DNA of 42,675 bases from an uncultured delta proteobacterium (lineage in GTDB: Bacteria; Myxococcota_A; Polyangia; Polyangiales; JADJMO01): the NCBI GenBank assembly GCA_903923175.1, contig CAIXWQ010000726.1, positions 1 through 42,675 on the forward strand, given 5' to 3'. The notes under the pieces were generated by a model that saw nothing but the letters and a program-made list of their open reading frames with translations, had not been told where the DNA came from and did not search any database. Shown here in pieces: positions 26,879 through 42,325 of the stretch (position 1 is its first letter; each line of letters begins with the position of its first letter). The position numbers were made by a program, and so were the translations under genes.

Positions 26879-27043
26879 GCTCGCTCGGTCGCCCGGGTCC
26901 GAGACTGCTCCGGGGTACGGGGGCGCTGGGCTCGACCCAGCTTCGCAGACGGCTCCGTCGAGGCCGGCGCCGCGCCCACGTCGTCGGCGTAGATCCGAAC
27001 GCGCGCCTCGCTCGTAAACCCAACGAGCGGAGACGACGCGACG

Positions 27044-27655
27044 ATGAGCCACCTCGACCAGACGCTGCTGCACGATCTGGCGCTCGGCGCGCCGGGCAGC
27101 GAGCTCGACGTCGCGCACGTCGAGCGATGCTCGGAGTGTCGACGCACGCTCGACGAGCTTCGTCAGGCGTGGGCGCGCTTCGCGAGCGCGCAGCCGCCGT
27201 GCGCGCCACCGCCGGCGCTGCGGGCGACGCTCCTCGCCGAGATCGAAGGGGGGCATCGCTACGCGCCGTTCACCTCGCGGGTGGCGAAGCTGTTCGCGAT
27301 CGAGGAGGCGCGCGCCGTCGCGCTGCTGGCGCGCGCGGCCGATCCGGCCTCGTTCCGCGCGCAACCGGTCGCTGGAGTCACGCTCGCCAGCGCGGAGGTC
27401 GGTGCGCCGTTGGGCGCCGCGCGCGCTTGCTTCCTGCGGGCCGCGCCGGGCACGCGCTACCCGCGGCACGAGCACGGGGGCGAGGAGCGCGTGCTGGTGC
27501 TCGAAGGGGGCTTCCGTGACGACGCCGGGCACGAGGCGCATGCGGGCGATCTCGAGCTGAGCCCGGCGGGCTCGACGCACGCTTTCGTCGTGCTCGAGGA
27601 CGCCCCGTGCGTGAGCGCGATCGTCTCGACCGGGCCGCTGCGGCTGGTCGGCTGA
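27044..27655 (+). CDS. ChrR-like anti-sigma factor 1 (ZAS zinc finger + cupin)
   Basis: HVERCSECRRTL (HxxxCxxC) and cupin RHEHGGEERVLVLEGGFRDDAGHEAHAGDLELSPAGSTHAF. Confidence 0.9.
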   Translation: MSHLDQTLLHDLALGAPGSELDVAHVERCSECRRTLDELRQAWARFASAQPPCAPPPALRATLLAEIEGGHRYAPFTSRVAKLFAIEEARAVALLARAADPASFRAQPVAGVTLASAEVGAPLGAARACFLRAAPGTRYPRHEHGGEERVLVLEGGFRDDAGHEAHAGDLELSPAGSTHAFVVLEDAPCVSAIVSTGPLRLVG

Positions 27656-27763
27656 ACGGTGACCCGCGGGCCCTGCAGCGCCGCCGCGCGTCGCATCCCG
27701 CCGCGCACGGGGGTGGCGAATCGCCCCGATCCGGGCGATGCTCGCCCGTTCAGGCCGAACACG

Positions 27764-28339
27764 GTGGGGGGCAGGTTGGAGCCGGAGACGAACGAACTCG
27801 ACGTCGAGCTCGTGCAGGCGGTCGCCCGAGGCGATCGTGCGGCGCTCGCGCGCCTGTACGATCTCTACGCGCCCCTGATGATGGCCGTCGCGGCGCGCAT
27901 CCTCGGCGATCGACGCGAGGCCGAGGACCTCCTCCACGACGTGCTCCTCGAGGTCTGGCGCCACGCCGACGAATACGCCGCGGCCCGCGGCTCGGTGCGC
28001 TCGTGGCTGCTGATCCGGCTGCGCAGCCGAGCGCTCGACCGCCGCAAGTCGGCGGCGTCGACGCGCACCGTCCCGCTGAACGCCGGGCACGGTCACGAGG
28101 AGCGCGCGTCGGCGGGCGACGATCCCTCGCTCGGCCCCGATCACGCGGCGGTTCGTCGGGCGATCGCTGCGCTCCCCGAAGAGCAGCGCGTCGTCCTGGA
28201 GCTCGGATACTTCGAAGGGCTCTCGTCCTCCGAGATCGCGGAGCGCATCGCCGCGCCGATCGGCACGGTGAAATCGCGGGTCGCCGCCGCTCTCGCGAAG
28301 CTTCGGGCTGGGCTCGGCGGAAAGGAGGAAGCGCGATGA
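27764..28339 (+). CDS. ECF-family RNA polymerase sigma factor
   Basis: ELVQAVARGDRAALARLYDLYAPLMMAVAARILGDRREAEDLLHDVLLEVWRHA (region 2) and LPEEQRVVLELGYFEGLSSSEIAERIAAPIGTVKSRVAAALAKLRAGL (region 4). Start uncertain (GTG 27764 or TTG 27776). Confidence 0.95.
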   Translation: MGGRLEPETNELDVELVQAVARGDRAALARLYDLYAPLMMAVAARILGDRREAEDLLHDVLLEVWRHADEYAAARGSVRSWLLIRLRSRALDRRKSAASTRTVPLNAGHGHEERASAGDDPSLGPDHAAVRRAIAALPEEQRVVLELGYFEGLSSSEIAERIAAPIGTVKSRVAAALAKLRAGLGGKEEAR

Positions 28340-28980
28340 ACCACGTCGTCGACCTCCTCCCCGAGCTCGCCCTCGGCGCCCTCGGCTCGATCGACGCATC
28401 GATGCGCGCGCGTGCCGAGGCTCACCTCGCGACCTGCCCGAGCTGCTCCGCCGAGGCCCAGGCCTGGGAAGAGATCGGCGTCGCGCTGGCCGAGTCGCTG
28501 CCGGGCAGCGCCGCCCCGACCACGATCCGCGCGCGCGTGCTCGCCGCCGCGGCGGCCAAGGGGCGCCTCGCCCGCTTCGCCGACGCCGTCATGCACCTCT
28601 TCGAGGTGCCGGAGGAGAAGGCCCTGGCCCTCCTCGAGGCCGTCGACGCCATCGAGGCTTGGGAGCCGGGTCCCGTCCCTGGGCTCGCGCTGATGCACCT
28701 GAAGGGCGGGCCCGCCCTGGCCGGCGCCGACACCGGCTTCGTGCGCTTCCCCGCTGGCATGCCCTGGCCGCTGCACAAGCACCTCGGCGACGAGCTCATG
28801 CTCGTCCTGGAGGGCGGGTTCGTCGACGACGGTGGGCGCGCGTTCGGTCCTGGCGACGTGGTGCGCATGCCGCCCGGGAGCCAGCACTCGTTCGACATCG
28901 CGCCCACCCGCGACTGCGTGGCAGCGGTGGTCGTGCACGTCGGGATCGAGCTCCCGCCAGGCCATCGCCTGGTCATTTGA
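28336..28980 (+). CDS. ChrR-like anti-sigma factor 2 (ZAS zinc finger + cupin)
   Basis: HLATCPSCSAEA (HxxxCxxC) and cupin PLHKHLGDELMLVLEGGFVDDGGRAFGPGDVVRMPPGSQHSF. ATGA overlap with the sigma gene. Confidence 0.93.
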   Translation: MNHVVDLLPELALGALGSIDASMRARAEAHLATCPSCSAEAQAWEEIGVALAESLPGSAAPTTIRARVLAAAAAKGRLARFADAVMHLFEVPEEKALALLEAVDAIEAWEPGPVPGLALMHLKGGPALAGADTGFVRFPAGMPWPLHKHLGDELMLVLEGGFVDDGGRAFGPGDVVRMPPGSQHSFDIAPTRDCVAAVVVHVGIELPPGHRLVI

Positions 28981-29046: not shown

Positions 29047-30930
29047 ATGCTCCGCGGCATGGAGGAAGCTGCTAGCCGCCTCGTGCTCGGCGACGCGCTC
29101 GAGACGCTGCTCTCGCACGCCGTCGAGCCTCTCCTGGTGGCGCGGCTCACCGGCGAGGTCGTCGCGGCCAACGACGCCGCGTGCGCCTTGTTCGACCACT
29201 CGCACGCCGACCTGCTGCGCCTACGGCGCGACGATCTCATCGACGCGAGCGATCCGCGCTTCGCGGCGAGGCTCGCGACGCGCGAGCGGAGCGGACGCGC
29301 GTCCGGCGAGCTCCGGGTGCGCAGGCGTAGCGGGCAGCTCGTCGACGTCGAGGTGACGAGCACCGTCTTCGAGATCACCGCCGAGCCGATGCTGTGGCTC
29401 TGCTTCGTCGATCTCTCGGAGCGACGGCGCGCGGAGGCGGCCGAGGAGCGATTCCGCGCCCTGTCGGAGGCCTCGCAGGAGGCCGTCCTCTTCCATCGGG
29501 ACGGCCGGGTGGTGATCGCGAACGACGCGGCGTGCGTGCAGTACCGCATCGAGCGCGACGCCTTCATCGGCCGCCCGCTGCACGACTTCGTCGCCCCCTC
29601 CTCTCGCGCACTCGTCGCGCAGCGCGCTCGCGACGGCCACCCGGGCCCCTACGAGGCGGACGGGCTCCGCGCCGACGGAACGATCTTCCCGGCCGAGGTC
29701 GTGGCGCGCACGACGGTGTTCCGCGGCGAAGCGGTCCGCGTGGTGTGCGTTCGCGACCTGAGCACGCGCAAGCGCATGGAGGCCGAGCTCGCGCTGGCAG
29801 ACCGCCTCGCGGCGATCGGCACCCTCGCGGCCGGCGTCGCGCACGAGGTCAACAACCCGCTGACGTACGTGCTCCTCAACCTCGCGATGGTGATCGATCA
29901 GCTCGAGCACACCGCTCCGAACGAGCCGTTCGACGCCGCGAAGGGGCTGGTGGCGCTGCACGACGCGCGAGCCGGTGCCGAGCGCGTCCGCGACATCGTG
30001 CGGGGCCTGCTCGCCTTCTCACGCTCCGACGACACGCATACAGGGCCAGTCGACCTCGCGCGCGTGATCGAGCGCACGACCAAGCTGGTGGCGAGCGGCC
30101 TGCGGCATCGCGCGCGGCTGCACGTCGAGGTCGCCCCCGTCGCGCGCGTCTTGGGGACCGAGACGAAGCTCGGTCAAGTGCTGCTCAACCTCCTGGTCAA
30201 CGCCGCGCAGGCGATCCCCGAGGGCGCCGTCGATCGCCATCGCGTCGACGTCCGCGTGCGCGCCGCCGAGTCGGGCATGATCGCACTCGAGGTCCGCGAC
30301 ACGGGCCCGGGGATCGCGTCGCAGGTGCAGACGCGGATCTTCGATCCGTTCGTGACGACCAGAGCGCCCGGCACCGGCACGGGGCTCGGCCTCTCGATCT
30401 GCCACGGCATCGTGACGCAGCTCGGCGGTCGCATCGAGGTCGAGCGCCGTCCGGGGCACGGCACGACGTTCCGCGTGCTGCTGCCCGCGGCGGACGCGAC
30501 CCCGCAGTGGCACGCCGAGCCGAGCGCCCCGCGGGCCTCACCAGAGCGCCAAGCCCGCGCGCGGTTGCTGGTGGTCGACGACGAACCGAAGCTGCGCGAG
30601 CGCCTCACGAGCCTGCTCGCGGAGGACTACGACGTCGTGTCGCTCGCGTCGGGACGGGAGGCGCTGGACCTCCTCGAGCGAGACCGCCGCTTCGACGTCG
30701 TTGTGTGCGATCTCCTGATGGCGGAGCTCACGGGGATGGACGTGTACGAGGCGCTCTGGGAGAGCGCGCCGGCGCTCGCGGAGCGCGTGCTGTTCCTCAC
30801 CGGTGGGTTCGCTTCGCCGCTCGCGGAGGCCTTCGTCGTCGCGCATGCCGCGCGCGTCGTGGCGAAGCCGTTCGAGATGCCCCAGCTGCGCGCCGCGATC
30901 GAGCGAGTGATCGCCGGCTCGAACGACTGA
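29047..30930 (+). CDS. Hybrid sensor histidine kinase (two PAS domains, HisKA-HATPase, C-terminal receiver)
   Basis: FRALSEASQEAVLFHRDGRVVIANDAAC (PAS), AAGVAHEVNNPLTYVLLNL (H-box), LLNLLVNAAQAIP, DTGPGIASQVQTRIFDPFVTTRAPGTGTGLGLSI, RLLVVDDEPKLRERL...VVCDLLMAELTGMD...VVAKPFEMPQL. Confidence 0.95.
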   Translation: MLRGMEEAASRLVLGDALETLLSHAVEPLLVARLTGEVVAANDAACALFDHSHADLLRLRRDDLIDASDPRFAARLATRERSGRASGELRVRRRSGQLVDVEVTSTVFEITAEPMLWLCFVDLSERRRAEAAEERFRALSEASQEAVLFHRDGRVVIANDAACVQYRIERDAFIGRPLHDFVAPSSRALVAQRARDGHPGPYEADGLRADGTIFPAEVVARTTVFRGEAVRVVCVRDLSTRKRMEAELALADRLAAIGTLAAGVAHEVNNPLTYVLLNLAMVIDQLEHTAPNEPFDAAKGLVALHDARAGAERVRDIVRGLLAFSRSDDTHTGPVDLARVIERTTKLVASGLRHRARLHVEVAPVARVLGTETKLGQVLLNLLVNAAQAIPEGAVDRHRVDVRVRAAESGMIALEVRDTGPGIASQVQTRIFDPFVTTRAPGTGTGLGLSICHGIVTQLGGRIEVERRPGHGTTFRVLLPAADATPQWHAEPSAPRASPERQARARLLVVDDEPKLRERLTSLLAEDYDVVSLASGREALDLLERDRRFDVVVCDLLMAELTGMDVYEALWESAPALAERVLFLTGGFASPLAEAFVVAHAARVVAKPFEMPQLRAAIERVIAGSND

Positions 30931-31009: not shown

Positions 31010-34000
31010 CTACTTGGCCGCCTTCAGCTCCGCGATGCGCTCCTTCGCGGTGACGAGCGTCGGCTCGGTCTCCACCGCGCGCTCGTACATCTGGATGGCC
31101 TTGGTCTTGTCACCCTGCTTGTGGCTGATCTCGCCGAGGTAGAAGAAGACCTCGCCCTTGGTGATGCCGCTGCTCCCATCGAGCTTCTGCAGCAGTAGCG
31201 CGCGGAACGTCCTCTGCGCACGCTCGAGATCGCTCGTCTCGAGCGCGAGCTTGCCGAGATCGCGCAACACCAGCACGTTGCCGGGATCGATCTTGAACGC
31301 GAGATCGAACTCCTGCAGCGCGGCGTCCTTCTCGCCCTGCGCAGACAGCGCCTGGGCGAGCCGGTGGTGATAGACCGCGAGCTCCTTGGTGCGCTTGCCA
31401 CCGAACGACTCGATGACCTTGCGCAGCACGTCGGCCGCGTCCTTGCCGCGACCGCTCGCCGAGAGCGCATCGCAGAGGAGGAGCAGCAGCGGCCGATCGT
31501 CCGGGACGAGCGCGCTCGCCTTCTCCAGCAGCGCGGCCGCCTCACCGGGCGCCTCGCGCTTCTGCATGTGGATCTCCGCCGCCTGCTTGTAGAGCGCGGA
31601 CTTCGGCGCGGCCTCGCTCTCGATCTCGGCCTCGAGCACCAGGATCGCGGCGAGCTCTCCCCACGCCTGCGTGCCCTGGTAGTGCGTGCGCAGGTCCTTG
31701 CGCGCGCGCGCCGCCAGGTCCTTCGCCTCCGCCTTCTCGGCGAGATCGAGCGCGCGCCGAAGCGCCTTCTCGCGCCCGCCGTCGTCCTTCAGCTCACCGC
31801 GCAGCTCGGCGAGCTCGAGCGCCAGCTCGGCCCCCTCTGCCCCCGTCGACTCCTCGACCAGGCGCGCCAGCGCCTCGGCCTTCTTCTCGCGGTCGCCACG
31901 CTGACCGTGGATCTTCACCAGCGCCCGGAGCGCGCCGACGTGCTTCTCGTCCTTCGCGAGGACGGCCTCGTACGTCTCGATGGCGCGCGCCGGATCCTTC
32001 AGCCGGTTCGCATAGAGCTCACCGAGCCGTACGCGCAGCGACAGCTCCGCGCTTCGATCGCCGGCGGTCGACGCCCGTTCGATCTGCGCCCCGAGCAGCT
32101 CCGCGAGCGGCTCGTCGCGCCCGAGCGACTCGTAGAGATCACCGAGCTTGAGGACGGCCTCGGTGTTCGAGGGCTCCTCTTCGATGACGGCGCGGAGCGT
32201 GTCGACCGCGTCCTCGGGCTTCTGCAGTTGTTCGTGTTGCAGCGAGGCGAGCTCGAGGCGCAGCACGCTGCGCCCGTCGGGCGAGCGGGCTGCGTCGATG
32301 AGTCGGCCGATCAGCTCGGCGAGATCGTCGAACCGCTTCGCGTCGAGGTACAGCGCCCGAAGCTCCTTGGCCGCGACCTCGTCGCCGACGCCACCGTCGG
32401 ACGAGTCGAGGAGCTCACGATAGAGCTCGATGGCCTGCGCGACGTCGGCGAGCTCGCTGCGCGCCACCTTCGCGGCCTCGTGACGGAGCTTCGACTGCTC
32501 GTCGGCCTCTGCCGCGAGCTCGGCGCGGCGGAGCAGGAGGGCGAACACTTCCTTCCAGTCCTTCGCCTCCGCCCGCGCTGCCGTGAGCTGTTCGAGGGCC
32601 CACGCGTTCGCCTCGTCCTCCTTGAGAAGCTCGCGCAGGATGACCTCGGCGAGCACGGCGTCCTTGAGGACCGTGACCGCGAGCGTGTGCGCCTCGCGCA
32701 GCAGGACCCGCTTCTCCTCCGGCGCCCCTTCGAGCGCCGAGCGCCGTCGCAGCGTAGCGACGAGGTCGGCCTCGCGCCCCGCGCCGCGCTGGAGCGACTC
32801 GATGGTCTTGAGGATCTCGAGGTTCTCCGGATCGTGGGCGAGCGCCTTGGCGTAGGCCTCCTCGGCGCCGCGCTCGTCCTTCGCACGATCGCGACGCCAG
32901 CCGGCGACCTTCAGCCAGAGATCGCGCGCCGTGTCGCTCGGAAGCGACGCGTTCGCGGCGAGGATCTCGGCGACGACGTCCGCCGCCTCCTTCCACTGGT
33001 CGGTGATCGGCAGCAGGCGCTCGAGCTCGGCGAAGGCCTCGGGCTCGGTGGGCTCGTCCTTGAGCGCGCGCTCGACCTGACGCTGCGCCGCCTTCGGGTC
33101 CTCCGCCTTCTCCTCGAGCACGCGCGCGAGGTCGAGGCGGAGGCGCGTCCGGTCGCGCGGCGCCGCGCGATCGATCCGCTTCTCGAAGAGCGTCGCGAGC
33201 TTGTGGTGATCGTTCGCCGCTCGATAGACCGGCTCGAGGGACTCCGACACCTCTTCGAAGAGCTCGGCGTCGTCGAGGAGCTTCTCGAGCGCCGCGCGCG
33301 TCGCCGCGTGCTCGGGGACCTCCTCGATCGCCGACCGCAGGGTCGCGAGCCCCTCGCGCTTGTGGTTGAACTTCTCGATCTGCAGGAGCGCCAGGCGACG
33401 GCGGAGATCCGCGCGGGCCGCAGCCTCGGTCGAGACCTCGATGCGCCGCTGCAGCACGTCGGCGAGATCCTCGAACTTGTCGAGTCGGCCGTAGAGGCGA
33501 TCGAGCCCCTCGAGCAGCTCGGGGAGATCCCCCGCCTGCTCCGTGGCCTTCGCGAGCGCAGCCGCGGCGCGCGCATCGTCCTTGAGCTTCTCCTCGGCCA
33601 CGCGAGCCAGCGTGACGAGGAGCTCCTTGCCGAGGTCCGCGTCGTAGCCGCCGGCCGCGCGCTTCTCGAGCGCGTCGGCCCACGCGCGCCAACCCGCGTC
33701 GCCCGGCTCGTGGCCGGCCATCCGCTCGAGCTCGTCGCGCAGCTCCTTGTCGTCGGGGGTCTCCTCGAACGCGCGCAGCAGCGCGTCGCGCGCGGCGGCG
33801 ACGTCGTGGCGCCCTTCCTCGTGAACGCGGGCGATCGACTGCAGCGTGCGGGCGCGATCGATCGGATCCTGCTGCCCGCCGAGTCGGAGCTCGAGCACGG
33901 CGACCAGGTCGTCGTGGCGCCCAGCGCCGCGGAGGACCGGCTCGAGGATGTCGGCCGCGGTACCGCGGAGCGCCTCGTCCTTCTCGCCGATGGCCCGCAC

Positions 34001-37000
34001 GGCCGCTACGGCACCCTCGTCGCCCGGTGCTTCGTCGAGCACCTGGCGGTAGATCTCGAGCGCAGCCGCCGCGTCGTCCAGCTCGCGCGCCTGCAGCTCG
34101 CCGATGCGCTTGCGGACGGCGATTCGCTCGGCGGCGTCGCCCGTCGTCGCAGCGCGCAGGCGCATGGCGTCGAGGAGCTCCAGCCACATCTTCTCGGACT
34201 CGTAGAGCCGCTCGAGCGCCCGAGATGCCTCGGTGTCGTTCGGCCGGACGTCGAGCGCTGCGCGGAGCGAGCCGATCGCCTCGCGCGGGTCGACGAGCCC
34301 CTTCTCCGCGCGCTTGGCGCGACGCATCAGCAAGTCGTAGCGGAGGTCCGCCTCGTTCGCGCCCGCCGCGTCGACGCGGCGCTGATAGAGCTCGACCAGC
34401 TTCTCGTTGTCGTCCTTCGCCTCGTAGAGCTCGATGAGCGCGTCGAGGGTGGCGGTCGACTCGGATTCGACCTCGAGCGCGTGCTCGAACGCGGCGATCG
34501 CCTGCGCCGCCTCGTCGAGCATGTCGCGACGGAGGCCGCCGAGGCGGCGCCACGCGAGCGCCTGCTCGGACGGATCACCGTGGATCTCGGCCTTCTTCGC
34601 GAGCACCCGGTCGAGCGCGCGCCAGTCACCGAGCAGCGTCGCGAGCTTGTCGAGCCGCTCGACGACGCTCAGGTCGTCAGGGTCGAGCGTGTGGAGACGC
34701 TCGAGCGTCTCGAGCGCCTTGCGGGGATCGTCGCGGCGACGATCGTGCAGGTCGGCGAGACCGCGCAGCAGGTCGGGCTTCGCGACGTCGTCGACCGCGG
34801 CGGTCGCGGTCTCGTAGGCGGCGACGAGCCCGTCCCAATCGCCAAGCGCCTCGGCGAGGCGATCGGCCTCGGTCCGCAGCGAACCGTCCTCCGGATCGAG
34901 GGCCCATGCCCTGCGGATGGCGTCGAAGGCCTTGGCGCGGTCGCCGCCGCGGTCCTCCCAGAGCTTCGCGGTCTCGCGGAGGATCGTCGTCCGGTCGCCG
35001 AGGTCGGTGGCGAGCGCGAGCCGCTCGTCGCCGAGGTCGATGAGGCGTCGCCAGTCGTCTGCCCCCTCGTAGAGGGGACGGAGGATCTCGGCGACGCGAG
35101 GCTTGAGCTCCTCGCGCTTGAGCATCGCCTCCAGGGCGTCGATGGCGCCGCGGTGCGAGGGGAGCGCCTGGACGATCTCCTCGTAGCGGTCGATGGCCCC
35201 GTTCGCGTCGGAGAGCTTGCCGTCGAGCACGCCGCCGAGCTTCAGGCGGAACGGCGCCCCCTTCTCGGGCGAATCGGCCGCCTCGGCGCGGCGCTCGAGC
35301 AGCTCGGCGAGATCGCGCCAGCGATCGGTCTTGGAGTACAGCGCCTCGAGCGCGTCGAGCGCGCCGCCATCACGGTCGTCGACCTCGAGCAGCTCGCGGA
35401 ACGCGTCGATCGCCGCGCCGTCGTCGTTGCGGACGTCGCGGTGGAGCTCGGCGATGTTGCGGAGCAGCGCGCTGCGCTCGGCCGGCTCGAAGCGGAAATC
35501 GAGCGCCTCGCGGTAGAGCGCGATGCGGTCGTCGGGGCGGCCGAGCGGCTTCAGCAGCCGCTCGATGGCGTCGAACGTCACGCGCCCAGCGGCGTCGACG
35601 GCGTGTGCGCGGCGGTAGAGCGCGAGCGCGCGCTCGGCGTCGTTCAAGCCCTCGGCGAGCTCGCCCGCGCGGAGCGCGAGCTTGGCGGTCGAGCCGTCGT
35701 CGCTCGTGATCTTCGCGAGCTCGCGCTCGTAGATCTCGAGCAGATCCTTCTGCAGGGCGCCCGACTTCGCGACGCGCTCGAGCTCGCTCCAGGTCGCCTC
35801 GTTCGAGGGATCCTCGGCGAGCACGCGCGCCCACGCGGCGAGGGACGCGGAGAGATCCTTCCCCTCGTCCTCCAGCATGTTGGAAATGCGCGTGAGGAAG
35901 CTGCGACGCTCGGCCGGCTCGTCGGCGTCGAGGAGCCGGACCTCCAGCGTGTGCATCACCTTGCGCCAGTCGCTGCGCTGCAGGTAGACCGGCTCGAGGA
36001 TCTCCGCCGCGCGGGCGCGGAGGTCCTTGTCGTCGAGCATCCCCTCGAGCTGCTCGATGGTCGGCGCGTACGTCGCGTCGATCGTGAGCGCCGTGCGGAA
36101 CTCGTCGAGCGCGCGGTCGACGTCGCCGAGGTGCTTGCGGGCGACGACCCCGAGCTCGTGGTGCAGCTCGACGTCGTTGCGCCACGTGGCGCCGCCCGAA
36201 GGAGGGGCGTCCGGCGCGTTGCCGAGCTGACGCTCGAGCAGGCCGACCACGTCGCTCCAGCGACCCACCTGGCCGTAGAGGCGTTCGAGCGAGGTCAGCG
36301 CCTTGAACGGCGGCTGCCCTTCACCCTCGACGAGCTGCTCGAGGGCGTCGATCGCCCCTTGCGCATCGGCGAGCCCCGTCTCGCAGAGCTCCGCCTGCTT
36401 GAACAGCAGCGCCGTCTTCTTGGCCGGATCGGCCTCGATCTCCACGCGACGCTTCAAGACGTCGAGCAGCGCCGGCGCGTCCTTCTCTTCTTCGTAGAGC
36501 GTCTCGAGCGCCTGCAGCGCCCGGACGTCGTCCGCGCGGAGCTCGAGCGCTCGCACGTAATAGGTGCGCGCGACCGCGCGGTCTTCGAGCCGGGTGCGCG
36601 CGAGCTCGGCGACCCGGAGGTTCACGTCGAGCTTCGCCTCGTCGTCGACGATCTCGGGCTCGACCTTGCGGAAGAGGGCCACGAGCTCGCCGTGCGCCGA
36701 GGTCTCCGCGGACAGCCGCTCGGCTCGCTCGAGCCACGCACGCACACCTTCGGTCGCCGCCGCGCCCTCGAGGCCGCGCGCAGCGAGCCCGAAGGCGCGC
36801 TTCGGATCGCTCAGCGTCGACTCGGCGACCTGGACGGCCGTCGCGAGAATCTCGAGCCGATCGGCCCCCTCGCCCGCGGCGTCGGCCTGGATCTCGAGCA
36901 CCCCGAGCAGCTTCTCGCCCAGGTTCTCGGCCTCGTAGAGCGGGCGCAGCAGCCCCGCCGCCTCGGCGCGCGCCTCGGCGTTCTCGAGGAGCTTCTCGAG

Positions 37001-40000
37001 CGCCGCGCGCGTCGGCGCATGCAACGTGTCGAGCGTGAGCGCGTCGCGGTAGGCCTCGAGGCCGCCCGAGAGCTCCTCGAGGTGCGCGATGCGCAGCGTG
37101 CCGAGGCTCGAGAGGAGCGACACCCGATCGCTCGGCTCCGACGCGAGCTCGAGCTGCTTCTCGATCGCATCCGCGAGATCGCGGTGCTGACCGGCCTTCT
37201 CGTACAAGGCCGAGAGGGCGGCGAGGGTGGGCCGGTCCGGCCCGAAATCCTCGAGCAGCGTGCGATAGGCGTCGATCGCGCCTTGCACGTCCTCGAGCTC
37301 CCGCGACAGCACCTCGGCGCAGCGACGCAGCAGCGTTCGGCGCAGCTCCGCATCCTGCGCGAGCCGCTCGCGGGCCCGCAGCACGGTCACGAGCTCGCGG
37401 TGGCTCGCGGTGGCCGAGTAGAGCCGATCGAGCGCCTCGAGCGCCTCGAGGTCGGCCTCGTCCATGTCGAGGCGGCGCTTCCACGCGGCGATCGCGCCCG
37501 TGTTGTCGGCGAGCGGCCCCTCGCGCAGCGTGCCGAGTCGGCCGAGCAGCGCCTTCTTGGCTGCGTCGTCCTCCTCGAGATCGACCTCGGCGGCGAGGAT
37601 GCCGTCGAGCAGCTTGTGCTCGTCGCCGAACGCGTAGATGCGCTCGAGCGCCTTGAGCGCAGGGCGAACGATGGCCGGATCGGCCCCTTCGAGCGCCACG
37701 ATGCTGCGGAACACGCGCTCGGCGGCCGCGCGATCGTCGAGGAGATCCTCGAACACGCGCGCCTGGTCGAGCAGTATCTCGCCCTTCGTCTCGACGTCCT
37801 TCGCGGCCACCGCGGCGGCACCGAGCACCTCGGCGACACGCGCGTGGGCGACGGCGCGACGGCCGACGTCGAGGAGCTTCTTGCGCGCGTCGGTGTCGCG
37901 CGGATCGAGGGGGACGAGCTGCGCGAGCGCGTCGAGCGCCCCCGCGTCGTTCTTGAGACGATCGTCGCGGAGCTGCGCGAGCCGGCGGAGCAGCTCGATG
38001 CGCTCCTCGACCTCGAGCACGCCCTCGACGAGCCGGATGGTCGAGACCTCGTCGAGCTCGCGCGGCTCGTCGCGCGAGACGTAGACGCGCTCGAGCACCT
38101 CGGCGGCGCGGACGCGCGTCTCGGGGCGATCCATGACGATGCGAGCGATCGCGCGGGCGTCGACGTGGTTGACGTCACGCTCGAGGATCGCCGCCGCGTA
38201 GCGGAGCGCCTCGGCGCCGTTCTCCAGGCGCTCGAGGTACAGCCGGGCGAGGCGTCCTTCGAGCGCGGTGCGGTGGGCGTCGTCGCCGCGATCGAGCTGG
38301 CGGACGAGGAGCGCCGCGAGCTCGGCGAAGCGGGCCGTCCGCTGATAGAGCTTGTCGAGCGAGCGGATCGCCGGATCGTTCTCCGGATCGATCGCGACCA
38401 CGCGCTCGTAGGCGGAGGCCGCGCGGCCCGGATCGTCGAGGATGTCCTCGAAGACGAGCGCGACCTCGGCGAGCAGCTCCACCCTGCGGTGCGTGTCGTC
38501 CGACGCCTCGATGGCGCGGTCGTACATGCGCTGCAGATCGTCCCAGCGCTCGCGCGCCGTGAGGATCTGCTTGAGGCGGGTGAACGCGTGCGTGTCTGCC
38601 GGGTCCGCGAGCAGGATGCGCTCGAGGTACGGGATGGCTGCGTCGGACTCGTTGAGCTTGTCCTCGAGCAGGATGCTCGCGCGCTCGCAGAGCTCCCGCT
38701 CGACGTCGGCCGCGACCTTCGACTCGCCCGACGAGCGATCGAGCGCCGTCGCGTAGGCGGCGGCGACCGCGGCCAGCTGACCGGTCATCCCGCCGAGCTC
38801 GCCGAGCCGATCCCAGAGCTCGAGATCGCCAGCGAACTCGGCGACCGCGCGCTGCAGCACGCCGAACGCGGCCGCGTCGTCGTGACGCTGCTCGCGGTGG
38901 ACCGACGAGAGGCGCCCGAACAGCGAGCGGCGCTCGCCCGCCTCGGTCGCGCCAGCGAGGACGACCTCGAGGACGCGCGCTTGCTTGTCGTACGCGCCGA
39001 GGGCTTCGTACTCGTGCTCGAGCTGCCGGGCGGCGCGCTGCGCGAGGGTCGGGTTGGCCTCGAGCGACTCGAGGACCTCGATCGCACCGGCGTCGTGTGG
39101 CGCGATCTCGAGCGCGCGAACGGAGGCCTCGAGGGCCGCGTCGGGCTTCTCGAGCTTGGTCGCGTAGAGCCGGGCGAGCTCGACCTCGCGCTCCGCCCGC
39201 TCGGTGCCGACCGCGAGGTCGCGGTCCTTCTCGAGCGCCACGGCCGCCTCCGCGGCGTTGCCCGCGGCGAGCTCGAGGCGCGTGATCGCACGCAGCGCGC
39301 CGCGGTGGTCGGCCGCGAGCCCGAGCGCCTTCTTGTAGATCTCGAGCGCGCGCGCGGCCTCGCCGAACGCCTCTTCCTCGAGCTGCGCCCACTCGAACAG
39401 CAGGGAGACCTGCGCCGAATTCGACTCGGCGCGCTCGAGCCGGAGCTCGTACAGCGCGCGCAGATCGTCGCTGCGCCGCGCCTCGCGAAGGAGCCGGTCG
39501 AGGGCGAGGATCGCCTCCTCGTCCTCCGCATCGGCATCGACGACGCGTCGGAGCTCGGTGACCGCCTCGTCGATCTTGCCGAGCTCGGCGCTCAGCACGC
39601 GCGCGAGCTCTGCCTGGAGCTTGCGCTTCTCTTCGATCGAAGCCTCGGAGCGCTTGCCCGCGTTGAGGCCGGCGAGCCGCTCCCGGAGCGCCTCCACGTA
39701 GCCCTCGAAGGCGTTGGCCGGACGGGCCGCCCCCTCGAGCTCTAGGCGCATGTCCTCGGTCGGCTGCAGCGCGTACGCGCGCCGCGCGTAGGCGAACGCG
39801 CCCTGGCGATCGCCGAGCGGGCCTGCCGCGAGCTCACGCAGGCGGCGGAGGATCCGCACGCGCTCGTCGAGGTCTTCGGTGCCGCGAAGCAGCACGTCGT
39901 ACACCGCGGGCAGGCGCGGCCACGCCGACTCGTGCTCGAGGATCGGGACGAGCTCGCGTGCCGCCCGCACGTCGTCGGGCTGCACGGCGAGGACGCGCTC

Positions 40001-42325
40001 GTAGGCGCGCGCGGCGCGCTCGGGGCGCTTGATCTTGTCGACGTACACCGCCGCCACGCGCCACGAGAGATCGACGCGAAGCTTGGGATCTTCCGCGCGG
40101 TCGGCCGCTCCGGAGAGCGCGTCGGCCAAGCCCTCCCAGTCCTCCTGCTGCGAGTAGACGTCGGTCAGACCGTCGTAGTCGCCGAGCTTGAGGTACTCGT
40201 CGCGCAAGATGCGCAGCGCCTTCGGGTAGCCGGGGCGCAGCTGCAGGATGCGACGCCACGTCTCGATCGCCTTCTGCGGATCGGAGAGGCGCGACTCGTA
40301 GAGCGCGCCCAGCTTCTCGAGCAGCTTGACCTTCGAGTCGTCGCCGTCGGCCTGCTCCACGCGGTGGCCGAGCACGCGCGCGAGGGTCGCGAAGTCCTTG
40401 TCGCGCTCCGCCTGCTTCTCGAGGGCGTCGAGGACGCCGGGCGCGTGGGAGTCCTCGTCGAGGAGCTCCCAGTACAGCGCGATCGCGTCGGCGCCCTTGT
40501 CGAGGCGCTCGGCGGCGAGCTTCGCCATCTCGATGGTGAGCTCCCGCTTCGCGTCCGCGCTCGCGTGGGCGCGCATCGAGGAGAGGAGGTCGTAGAGCGG
40601 CTTGAACGCGCGGCGCTTGGCGTAGAGCTCGCGGAGCCGCGCGGTCGCCTCTTCGTCGTCGGGCTTTTGCGCGTGGAGGTGCTCGTACGCCTCGACGGCG
40701 TTCTGCACGTTCGAGAACTTCTCGAGCCACTGCCGCGCGACCGAGCGCCACAGCTCGGCCTTCACCTCGGAGTCGGTCTCGAGCTCGGCGAGGCGCGCCT
40801 GCGCGCCGACGAGGTCGCGCGGGCGGTTGAGCGCCTCGAAGATGCGGACCTGTTCGCGGACCGCATCGAGGTTGTTCGGATCCAGCTGGACGAGCTGGTT
40901 GAGGATCGGGACGAGCGCGGTGTCCTGCTTCGTGCGGTCACGATGCAGGACGAGGATCTCCGCGAGGATCGGCACGCGCGCCGGGTCGGTCGCGGGGAAG
41001 CGATCGAGCTGCCCACGAAGCAGATCGACGATCGCCGGCCACGCCTCGGTGCGGTAGTAGAGCCGCTTGAGCGACTCGCGCGCCTCGACGTTCGCGGGGT
41101 CGCCGCGCACGACTTGCTTCCAGTGCTCGATCGCCTTGCCGGCGCCCTGGGTCTCCTCGGAGAGCTTGGCGAGCTCCGAGGCGATCGTCTGGCGCTCCGG
41201 CCCGTCGCCGAGCGCGCGCTGCGCGTCGGTGAGGATCTGCACGAGGCGCGGCTGCTCGTTGCGACCGGGGAGGAATTCGCGGAAGAACGAGAGCATCGCC
41301 GGGTGCGCCGGCTCCGCCTTGCGGATCTTCTCGAACCAGGGCTCGGCGAGCTCGGGCATGCCGCGCATGCGCCAGTTCGTCATCGCGATCTGGAAGTGGA
41401 GCTCGTTCTCCTTACCCGGGCGCAGACGCGCCTTGAGCGCGTCCTCGTAGAGCGCGACGACGCGCTCCCACTGCTCGTGCTTGCCGAGGTAGTCGACCAG
41501 GAAGCCGATCGCCTCGTCGTTGCCGGGGGCGAGCTCGAGGACCTTGTCGTACGCGGCGGCGGCGCCAGCCTCGTCCTGGAGGCTCCGGAGCTTGACGCGC
41601 GCGAGGCGGATGCGCGCGGCGAGGCGCGCTTCCTTGTCCGACGCGAGCTGCGAGACCGACTCCAGCACGCGCGCGACGTCGGCGTACTGACCGTCGGCGC
41701 GATAGAGGCGCTCGAGCAGCGCGGCGGACTCGACGCGCGCCGGGTCGAGGGTGCGGGCCTCCTCGAGGCGGTCGATGATCACGCCACGCGTGGCGGCGAG
41801 CTCCTCCTTCGTCCCCTGGAGGCCGTAGCGGAACGCGGTCTGCGCCGCCGAGTAGAGCATCGCGGCCTGCGGCTCGGGCTTGCCGGCCATGCGCTCGGCC
41901 GCCTCCATCAGCTCCTTGAGCTGATCGGCCCAGTGCAGCTTCTCGGCCTCGATCGCCTCGATCTTGGCTTCGACGTTCGCGTCGCCTGGGCGAAGCTTCG
42001 CCAGGCGCTGCAACGCGCCGAGCGCCTGCTTGGCGTCGTCGAGGACCTCGTTGAGGACGCGAGCGAGCTCGGCCTGCAAGTCGGCCTCGCGCGGGGTCCC
42101 GTCGGCGATCACGATCTCGAGCTCGAGGAGCTTCGCGACCGCATCGTCTTCGTGGCGCCCCGCATGCTCTCGGCGCGCGGCCTCGAGCAGGTCCAAGAGG
42201 GCGTCGTTCGACATCCCGGCGCCGGACGGGTCGGTGACCGCATCCTGCAGCTCGGTCCACGCCCCCTCGTGGTCGGGGTCTTCCTGCAGCTTGCCGAGGG
42301 CTCGACGGATCGTCTGGTCGCTCAT
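31010..42325 (-). CDS. Giant TPR-type repeat protein (3771 aa)
   Basis: Single uninterrupted frame with SD-like ggagaaacg before ATG 42325. Repeated pattern such as RVELLAEVALVFEDILDDPGRAASAYERVVAIDPENDPAIRSLDKLYQRTARF; canonical TPRs at the C-terminus (AVYHHRLAQALSAQGEKDAALQEFDLAFKIDP). Confidence 0.95.
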   Translation of the reverse strand: MSDQTIRRALGKLQEDPDHEGAWTELQDAVTDPSGAGMSNDALLDLLEAARREHAGRHEDDAVAKLLELEIVIADGTPREADLQAELARVLNEVLDDAKQALGALQRLAKLRPGDANVEAKIEAIEAEKLHWADQLKELMEAAERMAGKPEPQAAMLYSAAQTAFRYGLQGTKEELAATRGVIIDRLEEARTLDPARVESAALLERLYRADGQYADVARVLESVSQLASDKEARLAARIRLARVKLRSLQDEAGAAAAYDKVLELAPGNDEAIGFLVDYLGKHEQWERVVALYEDALKARLRPGKENELHFQIAMTNWRMRGMPELAEPWFEKIRKAEPAHPAMLSFFREFLPGRNEQPRLVQILTDAQRALGDGPERQTIASELAKLSEETQGAGKAIEHWKQVVRGDPANVEARESLKRLYYRTEAWPAIVDLLRGQLDRFPATDPARVPILAEILVLHRDRTKQDTALVPILNQLVQLDPNNLDAVREQVRIFEALNRPRDLVGAQARLAELETDSEVKAELWRSVARQWLEKFSNVQNAVEAYEHLHAQKPDDEEATARLRELYAKRRAFKPLYDLLSSMRAHASADAKRELTIEMAKLAAERLDKGADAIALYWELLDEDSHAPGVLDALEKQAERDKDFATLARVLGHRVEQADGDDSKVKLLEKLGALYESRLSDPQKAIETWRRILQLRPGYPKALRILRDEYLKLGDYDGLTDVYSQQEDWEGLADALSGAADRAEDPKLRVDLSWRVAAVYVDKIKRPERAARAYERVLAVQPDDVRAARELVPILEHESAWPRLPAVYDVLLRGTEDLDERVRILRRLRELAAGPLGDRQGAFAYARRAYALQPTEDMRLELEGAARPANAFEGYVEALRERLAGLNAGKRSEASIEEKRKLQAELARVLSAELGKIDEAVTELRRVVDADAEDEEAILALDRLLREARRSDDLRALYELRLERAESNSAQVSLLFEWAQLEEEAFGEAARALEIYKKALGLAADHRGALRAITRLELAAGNAAEAAVALEKDRDLAVGTERAEREVELARLYATKLEKPDAALEASVRALEIAPHDAGAIEVLESLEANPTLAQRAARQLEHEYEALGAYDKQARVLEVVLAGATEAGERRSLFGRLSSVHREQRHDDAAAFGVLQRAVAEFAGDLELWDRLGELGGMTGQLAAVAAAYATALDRSSGESKVAADVERELCERASILLEDKLNESDAAIPYLERILLADPADTHAFTRLKQILTARERWDDLQRMYDRAIEASDDTHRRVELLAEVALVFEDILDDPGRAASAYERVVAIDPENDPAIRSLDKLYQRTARFAELAALLVRQLDRGDDAHRTALEGRLARLYLERLENGAEALRYAAAILERDVNHVDARAIARIVMDRPETRVRAAEVLERVYVSRDEPRELDEVSTIRLVEGVLEVEERIELLRRLAQLRDDRLKNDAGALDALAQLVPLDPRDTDARKKLLDVGRRAVAHARVAEVLGAAAVAAKDVETKGEILLDQARVFEDLLDDRAAAERVFRSIVALEGADPAIVRPALKALERIYAFGDEHKLLDGILAAEVDLEEDDAAKKALLGRLGTLREGPLADNTGAIAAWKRRLDMDEADLEALEALDRLYSATASHRELVTVLRARERLAQDAELRRTLLRRCAEVLSRELEDVQGAIDAYRTLLEDFGPDRPTLAALSALYEKAGQHRDLADAIEKQLELASEPSDRVSLLSSLGTLRIAHLEELSGGLEAYRDALTLDTLHAPTRAALEKLLENAEARAEAAGLLRPLYEAENLGEKLLGVLEIQADAAGEGADRLEILATAVQVAESTLSDPKRAFGLAARGLEGAAATEGVRAWLERAERLSAETSAHGELVALFRKVEPEIVDDEAKLDVNLRVAELARTRLEDRAVARTYYVRALELRADDVRALQALETLYEEEKDAPALLDVLKRRVEIEADPAKKTALLFKQAELCETGLADAQGAIDALEQLVEGEGQPPFKALTSLERLYGQVGRWSDVVGLLERQLGNAPDAPPSGGATWRNDVELHHELGVVARKHLGDVDRALDEFRTALTIDATYAPTIEQLEGMLDDKDLRARAAEILEPVYLQRSDWRKVMHTLEVRLLDADEPAERRSFLTRISNMLEDEGKDLSASLAAWARVLAEDPSNEATWSELERVAKSGALQKDLLEIYERELAKITSDDGSTAKLALRAGELAEGLNDAERALALYRRAHAVDAAGRVTFDAIERLLKPLGRPDDRIALYREALDFRFEPAERSALLRNIAELHRDVRNDDGAAIDAFRELLEVDDRDGGALDALEALYSKTDRWRDLAELLERRAEAADSPEKGAPFRLKLGGVLDGKLSDANGAIDRYEEIVQALPSHRGAIDALEAMLKREELKPRVAEILRPLYEGADDWRRLIDLGDERLALATDLGDRTTILRETAKLWEDRGGDRAKAFDAIRRAWALDPEDGSLRTEADRLAEALGDWDGLVAAYETATAAVDDVAKPDLLRGLADLHDRRRDDPRKALETLERLHTLDPDDLSVVERLDKLATLLGDWRALDRVLAKKAEIHGDPSEQALAWRRLGGLRRDMLDEAAQAIAAFEHALEVESESTATLDALIELYEAKDDNEKLVELYQRRVDAAGANEADLRYDLLMRRAKRAEKGLVDPREAIGSLRAALDVRPNDTEASRALERLYESEKMWLELLDAMRLRAATTGDAAERIAVRKRIGELQARELDDAAAALEIYRQVLDEAPGDEGAVAAVRAIGEKDEALRGTAADILEPVLRGAGRHDDLVAVLELRLGGQQDPIDRARTLQSIARVHEEGRHDVAAARDALLRAFEETPDDKELRDELERMAGHEPGDAGWRAWADALEKRAAGGYDADLGKELLVTLARVAEEKLKDDARAAAALAKATEQAGDLPELLEGLDRLYGRLDKFEDLADVLQRRIEVSTEAAARADLRRRLALLQIEKFNHKREGLATLRSAIEEVPEHAATRAALEKLLDDAELFEEVSESLEPVYRAANDHHKLATLFEKRIDRAAPRDRTRLRLDLARVLEEKAEDPKAAQRQVERALKDEPTEPEAFAELERLLPITDQWKEAADVVAEILAANASLPSDTARDLWLKVAGWRRDRAKDERGAEEAYAKALAHDPENLEILKTIESLQRGAGREADLVATLRRRSALEGAPEEKRVLLREAHTLAVTVLKDAVLAEVILRELLKEDEANAWALEQLTAARAEAKDWKEVFALLLRRAELAAEADEQSKLRHEAAKVARSELADVAQAIELYRELLDSSDGGVGDEVAAKELRALYLDAKRFDDLAELIGRLIDAARSPDGRSVLRLELASLQHEQLQKPEDAVDTLRAVIEEEPSNTEAVLKLGDLYESLGRDEPLAELLGAQIERASTAGDRSAELSLRVRLGELYANRLKDPARAIETYEAVLAKDEKHVGALRALVKIHGQRGDREKKAEALARLVEESTGAEGAELALELAELRGELKDDGGREKALRRALDLAEKAEAKDLAARARKDLRTHYQGTQAWGELAAILVLEAEIESEAAPKSALYKQAAEIHMQKREAPGEAAALLEKASALVPDDRPLLLLLCDALSASGRGKDAADVLRKVIESFGGKRTKELAVYHHRLAQALSAQGEKDAALQEFDLAFKIDPGNVLVLRDLGKLALETSDLERAQRTFRALLLQKLDGSSGITKGEVFFYLGEISHKQGDKTKAIQMYERAVETEPTLVTAKERIAELKAAK

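Follow-up and report, generated by a model that had tools for sequence, protein, structure and literature searches.

The closest described counterpart of the locus reported here is the RpoE-ChrR (ECF11) system of Rhodobacter sphaeroides, in which each ECF sigma factor has one cytoplasmic anti-sigma factor, built from a zinc-binding domain and a cupin domain, and in which autoregulation proceeds from a promoter with the core TGATCC-N16-CGTA. In that system ChrR binds and inhibits the sigma factor, which is released by singlet oxygen, and the core regulon comprises photolyase, cfa-like genes, and rpoH2. RpoE-ChrR serves as the model for singlet-oxygen sensing, but how the cupin domain chemically reads the signal is not settled. 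A functional precedent from another protein family is the general stress response of Sinorhizobium meliloti, where one ECF sigma factor, RpoE2, has two anti-sigma factors of the NepR type, rather than cupin proteins. These paralogs are RsiA1 and RsiA2; the gene of the former shares an operon with that of the sigma factor (rsiA1-rpoE2) and is expressed in a sigma-dependent manner, and, unlike in the system considered here, regulation involves partner switching via the response-regulator anti-anti-sigma factors RsiB1 and RsiB2 (PMC3616915). In Azospirillum brasilense, two zinc-binding ChrR-type anti-sigma factors coexist in one cell and cross-talk to non-cognate sigma factors, but they belong to two separate pairs, RpoE1-ChrR1 and RpoE2-ChrR2, and not to one sigma factor with two anti-sigma factors in one operon (PMC10252715). 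For one ECF sigma factor with two ChrR-type anti-sigma factors, no precedent was found in the literature searched, which comprised non-subscription papers.

The window, a stretch of 42,675 nucleotides from the genome designated G000, carries an ECF sigma factor gene flanked by genes for two such proteins, cupin anti-sigma 1 (ASF1) and cupin anti-sigma 2 (ASF2; Table 1). This three-gene order had been put forward in the original prediction and is confirmed by the open reading frames and motifs, as is the ATGA overlap between the sigma factor stop codon and the ASF2 start codon (28336-28339). The sigma factor start had been placed near 27764; it is more plausibly the TTG codon given in Table 1, because a TTG-GA(A/G) start is also found in G003, a genome of the same family. 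Both anti-sigma factors match Cupin_7, the Pfam family of the ChrR cupin, and the zf-HC2 match of ASF2 lies only just above the threshold. Judged by Pfam domains and the ATGA overlap, the locus thus shares with RpoE-ChrR (ECF11) a sigma factor with sigma2 and sigma4 regions encoded beside cupin anti-sigma genes. The sigma factor is 66% identical to that of G003 and forms one clade in the tree with the sigma factors of other family members. Within the 10.7 Mb genome, matches to ASF1 at E ≤ 1e-3 are confined to the ASF1 and ASF2 genes themselves; because of this, and because two further genomes show the three genes in this order, the arrangement is not a product of chance.

Table 1. Coordinates of the genes and predicted promoter of the locus, its neighbors, related loci and candidate target genes (window positions unless a locus is named).
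Feature	Position	Strand	Remarks
Predicted sigma-dependent promoter, AGATCC-N16-CGTA (-35/-10)	26991..27016	+	27 bp upstream of ASF1 start
ASF1, additional (5′) zinc/cupin anti-sigma of ChrR type	27044..27655	+	203 aa; Cupin_7 1.7e-12
ECF sigma factor (sigma2-sigma4), most likely TTG start	27776..28339	+	Sigma70_r2 7e-15, r4_2 1e-14
ASF2, ChrR-type zinc/cupin anti-sigma	28336..28980	+	214 aa; zf-HC2 + Cupin_7 1.1e-11
PAS-histidine kinase-response regulator hybrid	29047-30930	+	directly downstream
Repeat protein	31010-42325	-	3771 aa; TPR-like by eye
1-Cys peroxiredoxin, G003	L032 6514-7152
Tandem cupin anti-sigmas following sigma, G264	L091 5194-6350
Sigma without adjacent cupin anti-sigma, G004	L111 4679-5802
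DoxX-family protein, G000	L149 2170-2607	-	ECF11-type motif
DoxX-family protein, G003	L179 1062-1490	-	ECF11-type motif
Glyoxalase, G003	L176 1550-1930	+	TGATCC-N16-CGTA 10-24 bp before start
Cytochrome P450, G003	L178 144-1490	-	TGATCC-N16-CGTA 10-24 bp before start

The metal ligands of ChrR (zinc H6/H31/C35/C38; cupin H141/H143/E147/H177; PMC6852236) have counterparts in both window proteins. For ASF1 these are H3/H25/C29/C32 in the zinc site and H142/H144/E148/H179 in the cupin, and for ASF2 H3/H30/C34/C37 and H147/H149/E153/H184, respectively. The HxxxCxxC motif and cupin metal site ascribed to both flanking proteins are therefore real, and, with both sites intact in each, the description of two divergent cupin anti-sigma factors around one sigma factor stands. 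The four cupin ligands of ASF1 and ASF2, arranged as H-x-H-x3-E plus a distal histidine, are invariant in 23-row alignments, and HxHxxxE occurs in 52 of 52 distinct cupin anti-sigma factors. The full zinc signature, His...HxxxCxxC, is present in both window proteins and lost in ASF2 of G003. Across the phylum sample, 44 of the 52 cupin anti-sigma factors beside the sigma factor lack the HxxxCxxC motif (for example, at L041, L043, and L050); many in that sample have a shorter N-terminal anti-sigma region, and all retain the cupin HxHxxxE.

AlphaFold2 models of ASF1 (pLDDT 89.5, with low confidence of about 50 for the first 20 residues) and ASF2 (pLDDT 92.6) both find ChrR (2q1z) as the best fold in the PDB, at E-values of 2e-9 and 2e-10, respectively. 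Because superposition of the models on 2q1z gives TM-scores of only 0.4-0.5 and an rmsd above 15, the fold assignment is based on a match spanning both domains rather than on superposition; such low TM-scores would be expected if the domain orientation differs between model and crystal. Strict membership in the RpoE-ChrR group is less clear, because neither ASF1 (57.5 bits) nor ASF2 (51.9 bits) reaches the curated cutoff of 124.5 bits set for TIGR02451, which models the ChrR family, and because the nearest solved relative of the sigma factor is SigK (3.9e-24; RpoE, 1.7e-19).

The original prediction proposed a search for the three-gene architecture in relatives, and the architecture proves uncommon: among 318 genomes of the class, the ASF1-sigma-ASF2 order is present in at least three, namely the window genome, G003, and G529, a member of another family. 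Weak second anti-sigma copies could have escaped this search and that of a 377-genome sample of the phylum, because scoring was limited to the top 8-10 candidates of each genome. In G003, both order and flanks are those of the window with one gene inserted, as a PMT-like gene is followed by ASF1, a 1-Cys peroxiredoxin gene, the sigma factor gene, ASF2, and, convergently, a long repeat protein gene. A scan of genome contigs with the ASF1 pair yielded JANYDK010000108.1 as the sole match, corresponding to G003:C143. The G529 locus has a cupin anti-sigma gene on either side of the sigma factor gene, and G264, from the phylum sample, has a sigma factor gene followed by two anti-sigma genes in tandem, both products of which lack the zinc motif. 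Other members of the window's family differ: G002 has the sigma factor gene followed by ASF2 alone, G004 has a sigma factor gene without an adjacent cupin anti-sigma gene, and in G001, of the same genus and 87% complete, other open reading frames fill the interval between the shared flanking genes. Nearly all other relatives have a single cupin anti-sigma gene next to the sigma factor gene. On the 3′ side of the window locus, the hybrid kinase was considered as a partner of the system and dropped, having no match in the G003 locus; the C-terminal region of the repeat protein is found in five of five family genomes.

A predicted promoter, the most informative feature of the locus and one absent from the original prediction, lies directly in front of ASF1. 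GATCC-N16-CGTA occurs exactly once in the window, where 0.08 occurrences are expected, and this core is identical to that of the published RpoE-ChrR (ECF11) promoter, the consensus TGATCC-N16-CGTA having been reported for Pseudomonas syringae, Shewanella, and Rhodobacter. The first base of the window -35 element is A instead of T, so that five of its six bases fit TGATCC; the autoregulatory element of RpoE-ChrR thus has its equivalent, as AGATCC-N16-CGTA, before ASF1. In 41 sigma/anti-sigma loci from across the phylum the motif occurs at 33 sites, 23 of which lie no more than 330 bp upstream of a sigma factor or cupin anti-sigma gene. The binomial probability of this placement (4e-34) is only indicative, because the loci are related and the motif was chosen after it had been seen in two of them; the better argument is the spacer control, in which neighboring spacer lengths gave 0-2 sites in the same 41 loci.

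Most two-gene loci that have the motif carry it upstream of the sigma factor gene, whereas in the window and in G003 it precedes ASF1, and in G264 it precedes the extra, second anti-sigma gene. A relaxed form, GGAACC-N16-CGTA, lies upstream of the 5′ anti-sigma gene in G529 and upstream of the sigma factor gene in G530, a sister of G529 that lacks the 5′ anti-sigma gene. On the simplest reading of these sequences, an extra anti-sigma gene lies between the autoregulatory promoter and the sigma factor gene; since the motif precedes ASF1 in both the window and G003, an autoregulated operon probably begins with this gene. The motif is found elsewhere as well: at L036 and L037 it lies between the sigma factor and anti-sigma genes, where the anti-sigma gene alone may be sigma-controlled, and in G004 it precedes an open reading frame located ahead of the sigma factor gene.

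The original prediction also considered that ASF1 might belong with a sigma factor elsewhere or that the arrangement might not be conserved in relatives. The conserved linkage and the ECF11-type promoter make the first possibility less likely, and the second fails, as the arrangement is kept in G003 and G529. A related scenario, in which ASF1 is left over from a different sigma/anti-sigma pair that lost its sigma factor, and in which its present neighbor is incidental, could draw on the free tree, which places the 5′ anti-sigma factors outside a supported set (98/83) of 46 sigma-adjacent anti-sigma factors. It is nevertheless highly improbable, given that two genera retain an intact ASF1, with its ligands conserved and the promoter type of this very sigma factor upstream, and that none of the three loci has a second sigma factor gene beside ASF1.

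Identity between ASF1 and ASF2 is only 36% in each of the two domains. A supported clade (98/93) unites the downstream, sigma-adjacent anti-sigma factors of G000, G003, and G002, and a duplication of ASF2 confined to the window is 26 log units worse, with p 0.085, so that a recent tandem copy is disfavored; a duplication at the family level is compatible with the tree (AU p 0.495). The zinc motif HxxxCxxC is present in three of three 5′ anti-sigma factors vs five of 49 others, a count of non-independent observations that leaves out the duplicate locus L114. In G003 and G529, the 5′ protein consistently has the zinc site and the 3′ protein does not. These data bear on whether ASF1 and ASF2 might be functionally redundant copies that affect dosage and contribute neither an input nor a feedback function of their own. 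Such redundancy would agree with a family-level duplication and with the full domain layout common to both proteins, but it appears quite unlikely in light of their low identity, the poor fit of a window-only duplication, although its p value is 0.085, and the consistent difference in zinc ligands between 5′ and 3′ copies.

The rates of divergence differ between the two proteins. Between G000 and G003, ASF1 is 38% identical overall and ASF2 50%. The anti-sigma halves are equally conserved (36.6% for each), whereas the cupin halves are not (39% for ASF1 vs 57% for ASF2), which suggests that the faster-changing part of ASF1 is its sensor half rather than its sigma-binding half. The overall difference could also be taken to mean that ASF1, though a member of the sigma regulon, has ceased to inhibit the sigma factor and acts instead as a cupin sensor or ligand-binding protein, as a decoy, or as an inhibitor of another ECF sigma factor. 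The poorly modeled N-terminal 20 residues of ASF1 would fit such a role, as would the presence of ASF2 alone beside the sigma factor in G002 and of one anti-sigma factor in most relatives. We regard this alternative as rather unlikely, because ASF1 of both G000 and G003, like the 5′ anti-sigma factor of G529, retains every zinc ligand of the anti-sigma domain, this domain of ASF1 equals its ASF2 counterpart in conservation, and the linkage to the sigma factor persists in G003.

Taken together, the intact metal ligands, ChrR-like folds, conserved gene order, promoter placement, and equal conservation of the two anti-sigma halves favor, with a probability of roughly 0.58, an autoregulated RpoE-ChrR (ECF11-like) operon in which both anti-sigma factors would hold the sigma factor and ASF1 would act as a sigma-induced feedback inhibitor. 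The operon would run from the promoter through ASF1 and the sigma factor gene to ASF2, with the second ChrR-type anti-sigma gene between promoter and sigma factor gene. ASF2, translationally coupled to the sigma factor, would be the basal cognate inhibitor, and ASF1 is predicted to bind the same sigma factor via its anti-sigma domain. The promoter directly upstream points to sigma-driven feedback by ASF1, which, as the first product of a sigma-dependent promoter, would allow a quick return of inhibition. It is important to note that this model assumes read-through from the ASF1 promoter into the sigma factor gene, across a gap of 120 bp in the window and across the peroxiredoxin gene in G003. 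Because the two cupin domains have diverged, the sigma factor may be freed only once both anti-sigma factors are relieved or removed, an AND-type logic. Of the roles suggested in the original prediction, dual-input gating and a decoy function are both compatible with the sequence. An extended version of the feedback model is possible but tentative: the locus could be an ECF11 switch with two locks, released only when both differently tuned anti-sigma factors are inactivated, with the sigma-induced ASF1 as the fast feedback lock. The locks would then have specialized further in G003 and G529, where only the 5′ protein has a zinc site.

Candidate targets were chosen by motif position near start codons and by orthology (DoxX), after inspection of about half of the 46 exact motif sites of G000 and the full set of 22 from G003. 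Genome-wide, the motif shows no excess over an N17-spacer control (46 vs 52 in G000; 22 vs 30 in G003); a regulon defined from such counts was rejected, and because most exact matches thus represent background, the target list is tentative. The candidates include genes for DoxX-family membrane proteins, clear homologs in G000 and G003, whose start codons follow the motif at a distance of 10-13 bp; in G003, genes for a glyoxalase and a cytochrome P450 are further candidates (Table 1). A glyoxalase is also among the ECF11 targets of P. syringae. A role in oxidative stress would fit these candidates and the G003 peroxiredoxin, a correspondence that is suggestive only. The peroxiredoxin gene inside the G003 operon and the candidate targets suggest that reactive oxygen or peroxide are likely inputs.

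The system is RpoE-ChrR-like in its ligands, fold, gene pairing, and promoter, and its new element is the second, promoter-proximal anti-sigma factor. The promoter code of RpoE-ChrR is thereby extended to a lineage for which the literature searched held no experimental description. More generally, a natural operon in which two cupin sensors act on one sigma factor with a defined promoter would offer a direct route to establishing which sensor reads what.
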